Shown here one piece after another: positions 2,963 to 9,455 of a DNA stretch of 64,000 bases. The stretch spans positions 248,001 through 312,000 of the forward strand of contig NZ_LYVJ01000003.1 in assembly GCF_001676385.1 (NCBI RefSeq), read 5' to 3'. A program made the translations under genes and the position numbers. The first letter of the stretch is position 1. Each line of letters opens with the position of its first letter. Under the pieces are notes generated by a model that was not told where the DNA came from, made no database searches, and saw nothing but the letters and a program-made list of their open reading frames with translations. Source of the DNA: Stenotrophomonas maltophilia. Lineage in GTDB: Bacteria > Pseudomonadota > Gammaproteobacteria > Xanthomonadales > Xanthomonadaceae.

Positions 2963-5089
2963 TCAGACCGATGCCGCGACGCATTCCTCGGCGTCGGAAG
3001 CAGGCGCCGTCGACGCCCCACGCTGGGGCCGCACCTCCTGGACGATCCGCCCCTGCTCCATCACGAGCACGCGGTCGGTGCTGTTTATGGTCTCCGGCCT
3101 ATGGGCCACGATCACCTTGGTCAGCTCCATACGCTGCACGGCTTCGTTGACCAAGCGCTCGCGCATGACATCAAGATGGCTGGTGGCCTCATCTAGAAAC
3201 AGAATCCGTGGCCGGCGATAGAGGGCGCGGGCCAGAATCACTCGCTGCTTCTGACCGCCTGAGAGCGAGTTGCCCATGTCGCCGATAAGACCGTGGTAAC
3301 CCATCGCCATCCCCGCGATGTCATCATGCACCGCGGCCATTCGAGCAGCTTCCTCAATGCGCTGTTCATCGAAGCTACTGTCGAAGCCGCTGATGTTGTC
3401 GGCAATGCTTCCTGCAAACAACTGGTCATCTTGCATGACTGCTCCCACCATGGAGCGAGTGCCGCGTGGACCGTGCTGCTGGATATCCACGCCGCCGATG
3501 CTTACGCTTCCTTCACTGGGCTTGAGCAATCCGAGCAGTAGTTTCATCAGGGTCGACTTGCCACAGCCGGATGCGCCCACGATGGCCACCGCTTCACCTT
3601 GTTCTACGCGGAAGGAACAATTGCGGATGATCCAGGGTTCGCCTTCGGCATAACGGAAGGAAAGATCCTTGACCTCAATGGAGAACGCGATCGGTACCAC
3701 CGTCTCGATTCGATCGAAATCCTGGTCAGGTGCACTGAGAACGACATCAGCCAATCGCTCCCCATGCAGCCTAAGCATCCTGAACTCGACAGCCTTGTCG
3801 ATCAGTCCCGCCATTCGCAGCGCGAACTGATCCTTGTACGCAAGATAGGCCACCAGCATGCCGACCGAGAACACATTGTTCATGGCCAGCATTGCACCAA
3901 TCCAGATAACAGCAATTCTCTCGATGCCGAAGATCAACTGACTGGTACTGGTAAACCCGAGCCTCAGCTTCGAAAGCCTGACTTCCTCATTGACCGTACT
4001 GACCATCAGGTTCTCGTAGGTTGCCGTCCGCATCGACTCCTGGCCGGCGACCTTGATGCTCTGCATGCCGCGGATCGACTCGAGCAGATGCGATTGCTGC
4101 TTTGCACTGGCAACGAGCTGGCGCTCGGTACGATTGCGAACTGGCGCGTACGCGGTGGCGCGGACCAAGGTGTACAGCACCACCGCCGCCAGCGTCACCA
4201 ACGCCAGCTTCCAGCTGTAGAGAACCATGACTCCTAGCGTGACGATCGCCATCAGGCCATCGATGAGCGCTTCGACGAAACTGGTCGTCAACGTCTTCTG
4301 GATGGATTGCACCGACGAGACCCGAGAGGTGATATCGCCCAGATGTCGCTTCTCGAAGAAGTCCAACGGCAATCGCAGCAGATGCCCGATAACATTCCCC
4401 ATCCATCTCAAGCCCAGAGTGGAGGAGAGATAGATGACAGAACAACCGCGCAACAGTCCGATGGCCACCTGCAACAGCATTGCAAGCCCGAAGCTTATTC
4501 CCAGTACCGTAAGCAGATCCCGATCTGCCGAGACCAGTGCCTGATCAACCACCCACTGGGTAAAGAACGGCGCAAGGACTACGAAGACCTGGAGCGCGAG
4601 CGAGAGAAGCAGGACCAGCGCCAATGAGGGCCACAGGCCGTTGATCTCTCCCGTCAGCTGCCGCAGCGAGATCGAAGCTGGTCTGGCCTCCTTCTGGAAC
4701 TCCGCCGTGGGGGCCAGCTCAAGTGCCACGCCTGTGAAATGCTCGGACACTTCCTCCATCGGAAGCACCCGCTCCCCGATGGCGGGGTCAAGAATCCTTA
4801 CATTGCTGCGGCCAACCTTTGCCAGCACCACGTAGTGGTTCAGATCCCAATGCAGGATACAAGGCAGTTTGAGCTGGGAAAGATGCTCCATCTCAAGCCG
4901 CAAGGGCCGCGAAGACAACCCCAGTTGCTGGCCAATGTGGATGAGCTGGCCCAACTTGGCACCCTTGAGCGACAACGGATAGCGTCGGCGGATCTCGCTC
5001 AAGCCGATCCTCTTTCCGTGGAAATCGGCGATCATCGCGATCGACGCCAGCCCACACTCCGTTGCCTCCGACTGAAGTATCGCTTTCAT
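2963..5089 (-). CDS. C39 peptidase-containing ABC exporter (colicin V/CvaB type)
   Basis: A 708-residue inner-membrane exporter that should cut double-glycine-type leaders and export the mature peptide. The C39 peptidase domain comes first, with Gln6, Cys12 (SEATECGLAS), His85 (LNHYVVL) and Asp101 (ILDPAIG), so the protease looks active. An ABC membrane domain with about six helices follows (roughly 150-440). The nucleotide-binding domain has Walker A GASGCGKST at 505-513, signature LSGGQ near 609, Walker B ILFLDE at 629-634 and the H-loop His663. It is last in the operon after the fusion protein, two peptide genes and a small membrane protein. ATG 5089 is the only start codon before an upstream in-frame stop. 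Its natural partners in the window are the two peptides at 5.5-5.9 kb. Confidence 0.93.
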   Translation of the reverse strand: MKAILQSEATECGLASIAMIADFHGKRIGLSEIRRRYPLSLKGAKLGQLIHIGQQLGLSSRPLRLEMEHLSQLKLPCILHWDLNHYVVLAKVGRSNVRILDPAIGERVLPMEEVSEHFTGVALELAPTAEFQKEARPASISLRQLTGEINGLWPSLALVLLLSLALQVFVVLAPFFTQWVVDQALVSADRDLLTVLGISFGLAMLLQVAIGLLRGCSVIYLSSTLGLRWMGNVIGHLLRLPLDFFEKRHLGDITSRVSSVQSIQKTLTTSFVEALIDGLMAIVTLGVMVLYSWKLALVTLAAVVLYTLVRATAYAPVRNRTERQLVASAKQQSHLLESIRGMQSIKVAGQESMRTATYENLMVSTVNEEVRLSKLRLGFTSTSQLIFGIERIAVIWIGAMLAMNNVFSVGMLVAYLAYKDQFALRMAGLIDKAVEFRMLRLHGERLADVVLSAPDQDFDRIETVVPIAFSIEVKDLSFRYAEGEPWIIRNCSFRVEQGEAVAIVGASGCGKSTLMKLLLGLLKPSEGSVSIGGVDIQQHGPRGTRSMVGAVMQDDQLFAGSIADNISGFDSSFDEQRIEEAARMAAVHDDIAGMAMGYHGLIGDMGNSLSGGQKQRVILARALYRRPRILFLDEATSHLDVMRERLVNEAVQRMELTKVIVAHRPETINSTDRVLVMEQGRIVQEVRPQRGASTAPASDAEECVAASV

Positions 5090-5488: not shown

Positions 5489-5677
5489 TCACATCAGGTA
5501 GTGACCCACGATCGCACCGTGAACGCCACCACTGACGGCGCCGGCGAACGCGCCCACCGGGCCGCCCACCAAGAACCCGATTGCAGCACCGGCAACCACG
5601 CCACCGGCAAAGCCGTTCGAAGCGCCTTCACCCGCGCCATCGACATTGGCAACTTCGGCATTGTTGAGTTCACGCAT
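5489..5677 (-). CDS. Microcin-like precursor peptide B (colicin V-type leader)
   Basis: A 62-residue peptide. The leader MRELNNAEVANVDGA matches the CvaC leader pattern (MRxL...E-hydrophobic..V.G-small), so the C39 exporter should cut after Gly-Ala at residue 15. The mature part is about 47 residues, very rich in Gly, Ala and Val, with repeated small-xxx-small spacing (GGVVAGAAIG, VGGPVGAFAG), and ends HYLM. This resembles hydrophobic, membrane-active microcins and class II two-peptide bacteriocins. Its twin lies 51 bp upstream in the same operon and shares the VGGP core and the YLM end. Target organism and activity are unknown. Confidence 0.75.
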   Translation of the reverse strand: MRELNNAEVANVDGAGEGASNGFAGGVVAGAAIGFLVGGPVGAFAGAVSGGVHGAIVGHYLM

Positions 5678-5728: not shown

Positions 5729-5905
5729 TTACATCAGGTAAAGCGCAACGGAAATTCCACCGCCGATGAGCGCACCGGCAGCGGACCCGGCCGGGCCGCC
5801 GACGAGTGCACCGGCAAAACCACCTGCACCGGCACCGTTGAGAAAGGCGCCCATCGCACCTTCACCCTCGACTTCGATAACTTCATCCATGGTCAGTTCA
5901 CGCAC
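5729..5905 (-). CDS. Microcin-like precursor peptide A (colicin V-type leader)
   Basis: A 58-residue peptide read from GTG 5905, preceded by AGGAG at seven bases; an in-frame ATG at 5965 gives an unlikely extension. The leader VRELTMDEVIEVEGE aligns position by position with that of peptide B, but the cut site would be Gly-Glu instead of Gly-Gly or Gly-Ala, which is unusual. An alternative is cleavage two residues later after Gly-Ala. The mature part (AMGAFLNGAG... ending ALYLM) is Gly/Ala-rich with GGxxG-type spacing and an LVGGP core shared with B. The pair is best read as two components of one bacteriocin, or as two paralogous microcins. Confidence 0.72.
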   Translation of the reverse strand: MRELTMDEVIEVEGEGAMGAFLNGAGAGGFAGALVGGPAGSAAGALIGGGISVALYLM

Positions 5906-5987: not shown

Positions 5988-7235
5988 TCATTGTCCGAAC
6001 ACAGTTCCCTTGATTGAGTAGATCGGCTCAAGGACCCACTCAAAAAACGATCTCGTCTCACCCAGAACATCCGCATCCACCAGCATTCCGGGTTTAAGCG
6101 TCTCGGGCTTGCCGTATGCGCTTACGGTTTGCGCTGCGAGAGCGACGGTGATTCGGTACATCGGCTCTGTCGCGCCGCCATTCTGCGAGGCACCCAGTGT
6201 GCTTCGACTGATCCGCGAAACCCGCCCTTCATGATGTCCAAACTTCTGGTAAGGATATGCCTGGTATCTGAGCAGGACCTTGTCGTCGGGCTCTATGAAG
6301 CCAACTGCGCGGCTGGGAACCAGCAGTTCCGCCTCCAAACGGCCATCCCCAGGCAGTATGCTCATGATCGGCTGGCCGCTCTGCACGGCTTGGCCGGCCT
6401 TGATCTGCTGGGTGGCTACAACTCCAGACACCGGGGCGACAATGGCCAGCCGCCCACGCGCGGTATTCTCCACACGTTCCTGCTCAAGCAATGCAAGTTC
6501 CTGCTGGAATGTCGCCTCCGCAGCCTCATTTTCTCCAGGCAGTTCATTGAGCGCCTGCGTGATCTGCTCGATCATTCTGTGCGTGGCGATCGCCTGCCGC
6601 TGCAATGCCTGCATCTCGCCCTTCTGCGTGAGCGCCGCGGATTCCTGCTGCTTGATCTGGAGGATGCTAACGTAACGATCGTCCTCAAGGAGCCGGAGGC
6701 GTTTCAGCGTTTCCTGTGCAATCCTGATCTGATCCTTCCTCGTCAGCACTTCCGCGTCGATCTGCGCCAACTCCCGCTGCGCGTTGGAAAGCTGGCTACG
6801 CAATCCCTCCTGCTGTGCGCCTAGCCGCATCCTCTTGGCAGTCTGTACCGCCTCAAGGCTGGACGTCCTGCGCTCGAAGCGGGATTCCATCGCGGCCAGC
6901 GTATCTCCATCAGTGGTGGTGGCTCGCGGAACACTCAGGACCGCAACTACCTCACCCGCTTCGACGTGCTCACCTTCGGCACTTCTGACTTCCGACATGA
7001 ACCCATTGGCTGGCGCCATGACCTGCGCGATTCCATTGACTGGCACAAGCTGTCCACCCACGTGCGAACGGTGGGTATAGGTGCCAAATGTAAGCAGCAG
7101 CACTACTACTAGTGCGGTGGAAGAAGCTACGATGGCAAGAACCCAGAGCCTGATCGGTTGCGTGATGGAAATCGATCCCAACCAACCAGCGCGCTTTCCT
7201 TGCAGAACTTCTCTGCGAAACAGATCTGAAGACAC
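5988..7235 (-). CDS. HlyD/CvaA-family membrane fusion protein
   Basis: A 415-residue periplasmic adaptor that would link the C39 ABC exporter to an outer-membrane TolC channel. It has a cytosolic N-terminus (REVLQGKRAGWLG), one transmembrane helix at about 30-50, a split biotinyl/lipoyl-like domain (APANGFMSEVRSAEGEHV and, after the hairpin, APVSGVV), a coiled coil rich in Gln, Glu, Leu and Arg over about 115-250, and a C-terminal beta-barrel region. The start is GTG 7235. It is first in the operon, 82 bp ahead of peptide A. No TolC gene occurs in the window, so a chromosomal TolC elsewhere is assumed. Confidence 0.9.
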   Translation of the reverse strand: MSSDLFRREVLQGKRAGWLGSISITQPIRLWVLAIVASSTALVVVLLLTFGTYTHRSHVGGQLVPVNGIAQVMAPANGFMSEVRSAEGEHVEAGEVVAVLSVPRATTTDGDTLAAMESRFERRTSSLEAVQTAKRMRLGAQQEGLRSQLSNAQRELAQIDAEVLTRKDQIRIAQETLKRLRLLEDDRYVSILQIKQQESAALTQKGEMQALQRQAIATHRMIEQITQALNELPGENEAAEATFQQELALLEQERVENTARGRLAIVAPVSGVVATQQIKAGQAVQSGQPIMSILPGDGRLEAELLVPSRAVGFIEPDDKVLLRYQAYPYQKFGHHEGRVSRISRSTLGASQNGGATEPMYRITVALAAQTVSAYGKPETLKPGMLVDADVLGETRSFFEWVLEPIYSIKGTVFGQ

Positions 7236-7546: not shown

Positions 7547-7860
7547 CTAGGCAAGGGCGGCGTCAGGCTCAAACGGTCGGCCACTTCTCAGTACGCCCCA
7601 AACCAGATGGATGAGCTTGCGCATCACCGCACACATCACGACCTTGAAGGGCTTCCCTTTCGCGCTGGGCCGGTCTGCAAAGGACTTCAGCCTGGGGTTG
7701 TAGGTCTTCCCGGTCAACGCCGGCATGTACAGCTTTTTGCGGAAATTGGCGTCGCAAACGCGTGATATCCGGCATTTGCCTTCGTAGTTTCCTGATTGAC
7801 GCTGGGCCGGATTCAAGCCTGCGTGGGCAACCACTTGGCGCACGTCGCTGTATTTGCTTA
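7547..7860 (-). pseudogene. IS110-family transposase, C-terminal fragment
   Basis: About 104 residues of the IS110 C-terminal (transposase 20) domain: VAHAGLNP, then an ISRVCDANFRKKLYMPAL stretch and GKPFKVVMCAVMRKLIHLVW. These are hallmark segments of that family. The frame is open upstream through residues SKYSD until it meets the left end of the IS5-family element at 7861. The N-terminal catalytic half is not found on the other side of that element, so the gene is a truncated remnant and not just an interrupted one. Confidence 0.82.
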
Positions 7861-8717
7861 GAGCGTGTTATGAACTTTGAAGTAGCGTTGCCGCGTTGCC
7901 CAACATCAGGATGCTGAAGACAACAAAGTGCAGCCCTGCCAAGGTTTCCGGCAATCGCTCGTAATCACGGGCTAGACGCCTGAAACGGTTGAGCCAGCCG
8001 AAGCTGCGCTCGACCACCCAGCGGCGCGGCAGCAATACGAAGCCCTTCTTTGCTTCGGGTAGCTTCACAACATGGAGCTCAATACCTTCCTCTCTGGCGG
8101 CTTCGGCTGGATCCTTGCCTGTATACCCCTGATCCACGTACGCCAGTTTTACCGTCTCGCCAGTCACGTCCTGGACCTCCTGGGCAAGCGCACGAACCTG
8201 TGCGCGCTCCTGCTCGTTGGCAGGCGTGACCTGTACCGCCAGAAGGTGACCCAGTGTATCCACGGCCATATGCACCTTGCTGCCTTTCTTGCGCTTGTAT
8301 CCGTCATATCCGGCTCGCGGGCCGCTTTCGCAGGTTGACTGCAACGTCCGGCCATCCAGAATGACCGCACTGGGTTGTCCCTGTTTGCCCTGAGCAGTGC
8401 GCAGCACAGAGCGCAGATCGTTGACCATGGCTTCAAAACACCCAGCCTGCAGCCACCGTTGGGTCTGCTGATAGACCGCCTCCCAAGGCGGGAATTCATG
8501 TGGCATCAAGCGCCAAGGAGCACCTGCACGTGCCATCCATCGCAATGCATTGAACATCTGCCGCAGGTCGTACTTGCGCTGCCGCGCATCAGGATCCATC
8601 AGCATCAGGTAGGGGGCAGCGAATGCCCACTCTTCATCGGTAACGTCTGCCGGGTACGGGCGCCGTGCTGTCATCCCGCTACGGTAGCGGGATCGATGCA
8701 GAGTCCATAACACGCTC
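7861..8717 (-). mobile_element. IS5-family insertion sequence, complete, 857 bp
   Basis: The two ends form imperfect inverted repeats: the left end reads GAGCGTGTTATGAACTTT, and the complement of the right end reads GAGCGTGTTATGGACTCT. The element is flanked by TA on both sides (7859-7860 and 8718-8719), which fits a 2-bp target duplication as in the IS427-like part of the family. It holds one intact transposase gene and has landed at the edge of the IS110 fragment. Confidence 0.85.
7868..8674 (-). CDS. IS5-family transposase
   Basis: A DDE transposase of 268 residues from ATG 8674; a GTG at 8713 lies inside the terminal repeat. The N-terminal DUF4096-like region reads VTDEEWAF and MFNALRWMARAGAPWR. 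Catalytic residues are suggested by VILDGRTLQST (Asp), LAYVDQGYTG (Asp) and the C-terminal signature RRWVVERSFGWLNRFRRLARDYE (Glu, with the Y-R-E-type spacing). The gene is uninterrupted, so the element may still move. It carries no accessory gene. Confidence 0.92.
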   Translation of the reverse strand: MTARRPYPADVTDEEWAFAAPYLMLMDPDARQRKYDLRQMFNALRWMARAGAPWRLMPHEFPPWEAVYQQTQRWLQAGCFEAMVNDLRSVLRTAQGKQGQPSAVILDGRTLQSTCESGPRAGYDGYKRKKGSKVHMAVDTLGHLLAVQVTPANEQERAQVRALAQEVQDVTGETVKLAYVDQGYTGKDPAEAAREEGIELHVVKLPEAKKGFVLLPRRWVVERSFGWLNRFRRLARDYERLPETLAGLHFVVFSILMLGNAATLLQSS

Positions 8718-8732
8718 TATAGATACAGAACG

Positions 8733-9110
8733 CTAGTCATCCCTCTCGACCTGGACATCGACCTTATCCCGAAAAATAACTGAAATGAAAGACAAAAGCA
8801 GAGCTGGAAGCCCCAAAAGCAGCACGAAAGACAAAGGCGCACCAAACGACCATAGAGCTGCAGAAAATACAACAGCCTAAACCCCAAGCAGCAGGAACGA
8901 GCACTTAACTTTCTTTATTAATAGGTAACTTGCCGTCGAACACAGCAGCGAGAAAGCGGCAACGAAAACCCCGACCACCTGAGGAACCTGCAAAGGCTCA
9001 GCACCCCTCAGCGCTGCCACCAGCATCAGCGCTGAGGCAGACGCCATTGCTACCAGGGAAATAAAATAGAACTTGCCATGTCGCCCATCAAATCCATCAG
9101 TAATCTTCAC
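8733..9110 (-). pseudogene. Four-helix membrane protein interrupted by an in-frame TAG; candidate old immunity gene
   Basis: From GTG 9110 (preceded by GAGG) the frame encodes two membrane helices and stops at TAG 8877-8879 after KVKCSFLLLGV. The same frame continues at once with AVVFSAALWSFGAPLSF, two more helices and a charged tail VQVERDD before a second TAG at 8733-8735. The hydrophobic pattern and the charged ending suggest one original gene of about 125 codons broken by a nonsense change (or read through by an amber suppressor). Another GTG at 9143 is possible. It directly follows the third microcin-like peptide, where an immunity gene would be expected. No family is recognised. Confidence 0.55.
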
Positions 9111-9161
9111 ATCAACCCTCAAGGGATCGCAGGGCGAAATCACTGCGATCCGGCCAATTAT

Positions 9162-9317
9162 TTACCAAGCCATCCGATCGAGCTGATCGCCCGCATAACC
9201 AGCACCAGCAATAGCAATAGCAACACCAGCGACAAAACCTTTACCAAACGCAGTTCCAATCCCAACGACGACCGGCACAGCTGCACCGTCGACGCTCTCA
9301 ACTTCAAGAATGGTCAA
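9162..9317 (-). pseudogene. Third microcin-like peptide with damaged leader
   Basis: Read from TTG 9317 the frame gives LTILEVESVDGA, then a hydrophobic Gly/Ala/Val peptide (VVVGIGTAFG, AGVAIAIAGAGYAG) ending DRMAW. LTILEVESVDGA is a close match to the CvaC-type leader and to peptides A and B. In the leader alignment, the codon just before is TAA where MREL would have Glu, and the codon at the start position is TGT. There is no ribosome site, so the gene is probably dead. Translation from TTG would lack the first three leader residues. It ends 52 bp before the interrupted membrane gene. Confidence 0.6.
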
Positions 9318-9455
9318 TTAGCGACAGTCAGCACCGAGAGTGCGGCAAGCAGAGGGAACGCCAAAAGCCCCTGGGATTGGGAGAGCATAATGCCCCCCCA
9401 ACCAGCTGCTTCGCTTTGCATCCAAGACTGGGTGTCTAAGCGACGAATCCGACAT
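9318..9455 (-). pseudogene. Remnant of a second HlyD/CvaA-like gene (5' end only)
   Basis: ATG 9455, preceded by GGAGA, starts MSDSSLRHPVLDAKRSSWLGG. This aligns without gaps to the start of the intact fusion protein at 7235 (MSSDLFRREVLQGKRAGWLG). A run of seven G (C7 at 9393-9399 on the plus strand) then breaks the frame. If one G is removed, the reading continues into a membrane-anchor-like segment (IMLSQSQGLLAFPLLAALSV), the position of the anchor in the intact protein. Homology ends near 9325, where the third leader peptide begins. So most of the gene has been deleted and its start joined to a microcin gene. Confidence 0.6.

Follow-up and report, generated by a model that had tools for sequence, protein, structure and literature searches.

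What is the broken stretch of DNA that lies next to a seemingly working set of genes for peptide production and export in Stenotrophomonas maltophilia? The stretch (9455-8733, minus strand) is part of a window of 64,000 nucleotides, the whole piece of DNA analysed here, which lies within contig 3 of the 4.12 Mb genome G000. The earlier note had read it as the fossil of a second export/microcin module. Three elements can be read in order, i.e. the start of a HlyD-type fusion protein (MFP), a double-glycine peptide and a membrane protein, and each of them is broken (Table 1). We conclude with high confidence that a second class II microcin-like cassette was wrecked here, one whose type is intact in another genome of the genus (G004), with the history proposed below. 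The genus was represented by 91 Stenotrophomonas genomes, G000 included.

Table 1. Features of the fossil region, of the adjoining intact module and of the insertion elements, in window coordinates
Feature	Position	Strand	Basis or remarks
Start of fossil MFP, read in its first frame as far as the G7 run (residues 1-21)	9393..9455	-	HMM and N-terminus comparison
Continuation of fossil MFP in a different frame (about residues 22-44), reaching into the first membrane helix	9326..9392	-	fixed-register test
Fossil double-glycine peptide	9162..9323	-	start codon of leader lost; leader stop at 9320-9318; open mature part reaches 9162
Fossil membrane protein, putative immunity protein	8733..9110	-	GTG start at 9110; in-frame TAG at 8879-8877
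IS5-family element, between fossil and intact module	7859..8722	-	gene 7868-8713; NF033580 195.6 bits (cut-off 110)
IS110-family transposase gene, last part	7547..7858	-	Transposase_20 42.3 bits (cut-off 21.3); NF033542 matched from position 251 of 343
Intact MFP, HlyD family	5988..7235	-	HlyD_3 69.8 bits (cut-off 22.2)
Intact double-glycine peptide 1	5729..5905	-	leader motif
Intact double-glycine peptide 2	5489..5677	-	leader motif; MccV 21.4 bits (below cut-off 27)
Small membrane protein of intact module, 60 residues	5217..5399	-	one hydrophobic peak
C39-peptidase ABC exporter of intact module	2963..5089	-	Peptidase_C39, ABC_membrane and ABC_tran above cut-off

The fossil peptide has lost its start codon, and its leader carries the TAA that had been reported for a third leader peptide. 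The leader motif ends in VDGA, in keeping with the GG or GA leader of class II microcin precursors. A scan for this motif in 3.40 million codons (112 sequences, a few loci being present twice) gave 34 matches, three of them in the window, namely both intact peptides and the fossil, which alone among the 34 has an internal stop. The fossil peptide has no MccV or Bacteriocin_IIc match in Pfam at E <= 1, and neither the peptide nor the first piece of the fossil membrane protein matches a Pfam or NCBIfam family above its cut-off. Three clusters of relatives (from 4 candidates) were found in the protein database and all of them start at the residue just after the window's leader stop, which shows how gene calling conceals such relics.

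For the membrane protein (125 residues) the database holds 15 clusters, 13 of them full length, the named relatives being from S. maltophilia, S. geniculata, S. hibiscicola and a Stenotrophomonas sp. The in-frame stop noticed earlier in this gene was confirmed, and relatives without that stop exist. One database relative (P0004) shows four hydrophobic peaks, the G004 relative three, not four, above the same cut-off, and the predicted structure of the protein consists of four helices in a poor model (pLDDT 56). In plasmids, the membrane protein found no match, and the DNA of the fossil region matched in the IS5 stretch only among the matches listed (best 8 of 13 records); scans of genome contigs and viruses with the membrane-protein alignment confirmed nothing. 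A second copy of the fossil was not found in its own genome, where there is a single DNA match.

The intact counterpart in G004 (L037:6113-11001) consists of open genes for an MFP, two peptides, a 135-residue membrane protein and an ABC exporter, in this order. When the second G004 peptide was searched over the 91 genomes, the fossil peptide was the best match after the query itself (E 2.2e-5 per genome, one stop inside), as compared with E 0.006 for its own sister peptide and 0.035 for the next genome. In BLASTP the fossil peptide and its G004 counterpart are 43% identical over 28 residues. The G004 membrane protein had matches in 5 of 91 genomes at E <= 0.001, i.e. itself, G013, G080, G064 and the fossil, the latter with one stop inside and an E of 4.9e-4 per genome, which becomes about 0.045 when multiplied by 91 genomes; G005, which is discussed below, was not among these matches. 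Searches over 113 loci likewise pointed to G004. With the membrane-protein HMM, G004 was the only MFP-linked locus matched (E 1.6e-5, the next value being 1.2), and with the fossil peptide the G004 locus was the best match (E 1.7e-4, next 0.46). A profile comparison of the two membrane proteins gave 92% probability and 27% identity over 117 columns. The two cassettes are thus alike in the order of MFP, double-glycine peptides and membrane protein, with the second peptide and the membrane protein homologous, and they differ in that the G004 genes are open, that the ABC gene stands last, that there are two peptides, and in the low identity of the membrane proteins. Since the G004 searches reach both fossil genes across their stops, we regard the stretch as what is left of a second cassette, of class II microcin-like type, which supports the earlier note in its main point. 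A near-identical, undeleted copy was not found, and a search with the first 60 residues of a Pseudoxanthomonas MFP (62 proteins from 199 candidates) found no N-terminus near-identical to that of the fossil.

No remnant of an ABC gene was detected between 7236 and 9823 at a useful E (best E 3.0), which leaves the fossil module without an exporter gene. This would be expected if the second cassette never had one, its MFP, peptide and immunity gene having been added to a single shared exporter. Such an arrangement is a variant of our explanation that does not exclude it, and we consider it possible, if somewhat doubtful. It gains from genome G005, where the site holds a different wreck: an exporter remnant of 155 residues, the end of the protein and 97% identical to the intact exporter of the window, lies about 450 bases from a membrane gene that shares 90% DNA identity over 452 bases with the window's. 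Against it, the G004 cassette ends in an ABC gene of its own, behind the membrane protein, at the place where the window has IS DNA. Further right in G005 there is a remnant of the small membrane protein (L006:10155-10372, residues 12-60, 57% identical) about 20 bases from the stretch that lies upstream of the intact MFP, the same spacing in the window being about 1.9 kb. The MFP and the peptides are thus gone from between them, i.e. this is a second deletion scar; no MFP was found anywhere in the G005 genome, and at the site neither an MFP nor a peptide was detected. The G005 membrane gene is without the window's TAG and has frame changes elsewhere in the gene, and the two wrecks thus differ in their lesions.

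The MFP start opens at 9455, and 21 residues can be followed in one frame until the G7 run at 9393-9399 breaks it, as had been proposed for the start of a fusion-protein gene. Only the first 44 codons or so of the protein are left. An HMM of residues 1-21, built from 18 genus sequences, was searched against 14,736 six-frame segments (window and 34 loci, 540 kb). The fossil scored 20.3 bits (E 2.2e-4) and ranked directly under 23 real MFP starts, with the next segment at only 11.3 bits (E 0.15); the HMM missed five more distant MFPs in the set (L056, L059-L062). Against 107 MFP N-termini (27 locus-derived and 80 named, a few genomes being in twice) the mean score of these residues was 42.9, that of shuffled sequences was 17.3 +/- 1.7, and none of 500 shuffles reached the fossil's value. 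The stretch after the G7 run scored 17.1 in a fixed register (85 of the 107 N-termini usable) while shuffles averaged -7.9 +/- 6.9 and none of 1000 reached it; the score of its first seven residues was reached by 4 of 1000. In free alignment this stretch is weak (reached by 20 of 500 shuffles), and it was not among the best 45 in a free HMM search for MFP residues 20-45. Just 21 residues are thus significant without a fixed register, and it could be argued that the peptide and the membrane protein are real relics, and the MFP-like start a chance resemblance in upstream DNA. We consider this very unlikely, given that a match of such an E value in 540 kb falls on the strand and in the place where G004 has its MFP, and that the continuation fits in register. 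The same similarities rule out that 9318-9455 is an ordinary non-coding leader, the outcome on which the earlier note had said that its reading would fall. The MFP gives way to the double-glycine leader within about a dozen bases, which places the abrupt junction, previously put near 9325, at about 9335-9324. A deletion joining the first membrane helix of the MFP to the peptide leader would account for it.

The relation of the fossil to its intact neighbour is a different matter. The peptides of the intact module stay under the family cut-offs (peptide 1, MccV 13.7 bits; peptide 2, Bacteriocin_IIc 22.4 of 27.1 bits, besides the MccV score in Table 1), and for its 60-residue membrane protein neither Pfam nor NCBIfam gave a family above cut-off. 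As the earlier note had stated, the fossil does repeat the order of MFP, peptide and small membrane protein, and there is a second cassette of the same architecture, one now decayed. What did not stand is that the two are related as copies of each other, as their small membrane proteins are not homologous. When searched against the adjoining 2.6 kb, the intact peptides match the fossil leader only, weakly (E 0.19), and past the leader there is no similarity. Alike as the gene kinds and their order are, a tandem duplication that left the fossil as a decayed copy of the intact module is the least credible of the explanations and was rejected, in view of the unrelated membrane proteins (hhalign probability 0.6%), of peptides that match at the leader at most, and of the closest relatives of the fossil sitting in G004. 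The fossil is thus a second cassette of another lineage.

We now return to the membrane protein. Its place, size and hydropathy agree with what the available part of PMC9746304 says of microcin immunity proteins, and by this analogy it is rather likely to be an immunity protein. The role is not certain, because G013, G064 and G080 carry homologues without a cassette, with an autotransporter gene as neighbour. These stand-alone homologues are open and 41-51% identical (L072:7533-8054, L073:7502-8137 and L074:6875-7336 in G080, G013 and G064, respectively), and the adjoining gene in L072 and L073 (G080 and G013) codes for a large serine-protease autotransporter. There is also a gene nearby that we take to be an AMP nucleosidase. 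The stand-alone homologues may be orphan immunity genes or something else.

Between the window and G005, the membrane gene shows 22 synonymous and 15 non-synonymous changes, i.e. a dN/dS of about 0.21 by simple counting over 133 of 137 codons, the first 11 of which are upstream of the conserved start. This value, together with the full length of the protein in most database clusters, suggests that the membrane protein probably outlived the peptide. The simplest history is then one in which the peptide and the adaptor of the exporter were the first to be lost, the membrane gene remaining under selection and being broken afterwards, separately in each lineage. In the living cassette, a C39 ABC exporter would have cut the leader after the VDG-A site, the peptide would have passed via the fusion protein and a TolC-type channel, and the four-helix membrane protein would have shielded the producer's inner membrane. 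A deletion could then have ended both genes by fusing the first membrane helix of the MFP to the peptide leader at about its second codon. As orphan immunity the membrane protein probably persisted for a while under selection, and its gene would have been broken later, independently in the window lineage and in G005. Short genes are under-called, and intact peptides may lie beside some of the 13 full-length membrane-protein clusters.

The genes flanking the site are both present in all 91 genomes, on the same contig in 88. In 81 of the 88 the gap between them does not exceed 1 kb; in the rest it is 6.9 kb in the window, 2.5 kb in G005, 6.4 kb in G086, 35.9 kb in G107 and 1.2-1.7 kb in the other three. 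By our reading of the open reading frames, the G086 gap appears to be filled by large RHS-like genes. The IS5-family element in the window is the single copy in its genome; we read TA on either side of it, and it sits in or beside the cut IS110-family gene. We speculate, as a tentative proposal that falls somewhat short of an even chance, that the site is a turnover spot where cassettes are gained and then wrecked by deletions which remove adaptor and toxin and spare the small membrane (immunity) gene, the latter being selected as an orphan and then dying independently in each lineage. If this is true, the chromosome here records that the toxin was lost before the immunity. Because the broken toxin still adjoins the membrane gene, a strain-by-strain test of the order of losses is possible.

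Damaged cassettes occur elsewhere in the genus (loci L042, L057 and L066 in G020, G061 and G095). The MFP is split over two frames in G020, the MFP start and the ABC end remain in G061, and the MFP end and the ABC start remain in G095. Three loci (L038:4609-7401, L039:4602-7394 and L041:3318-6167) contain a gene of 930-949 residues between MFP and ABC, presumably an M16-type zinc peptidase, and the peptide scan found no double-glycine peptide in them. Finally, two contigs titled Paenibacillus dendritiformis and Bacillus subtilis (L092 and L126) carry loci of Xanthomonas-family type, which are probably contaminations of those assemblies.

The present analysis documents microcin-like cassettes, alive and dead, in Stenotrophomonas. 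Among the literature matches listed, no title or abstract start dealt with class II microcin cassettes in this genus, and the one paper among them on antibacterial effectors of Stenotrophomonas (PMC8262851) concerned, in the text available, a type IV secretion system. In PMC13174018, as far as its accessible part tells, the candidates screened came from Pantoea, Erwinia and Xanthomonas.

It is useful to compare the fossil with known systems, and the case is ordinary in kind. With the class II microcin clusters (MccV and others), as described in the accessible text of PMC9746304, the modules of the window share the C39 ABC exporter (in the intact module), the MFP, the GG or GA leader and a small membrane protein near the peptide. 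They differ in that the peptides here are below the cut-offs or unmatched, and the fossil is dead. The mcbABCI locus of Moraxella catarrhalis likewise unites an MFP-type accessory gene, an exporter, a bacteriocin and an immunity gene; according to the part of PMC2761928 at hand, the gene for its exporter stands before that for the peptide and McbI is 74 residues long, whereas here the exporter is last and the membrane protein has 125. The orphan immunity genes of E. coli bacteriocins, in the available portion of PMC12546727, resemble our case in that a (here putative) protection gene is retained while the toxin is missing or truncated. Whether such orphans originate by toxin loss or by immunity gain is described there as unsettled, with the authors finding support for gain. 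The E. coli genes are on plasmids, whereas the present one is chromosomal, with the wreck of the toxin still adjoining, and thus provides a chromosomal case for the question of how orphan immunity genes arise.
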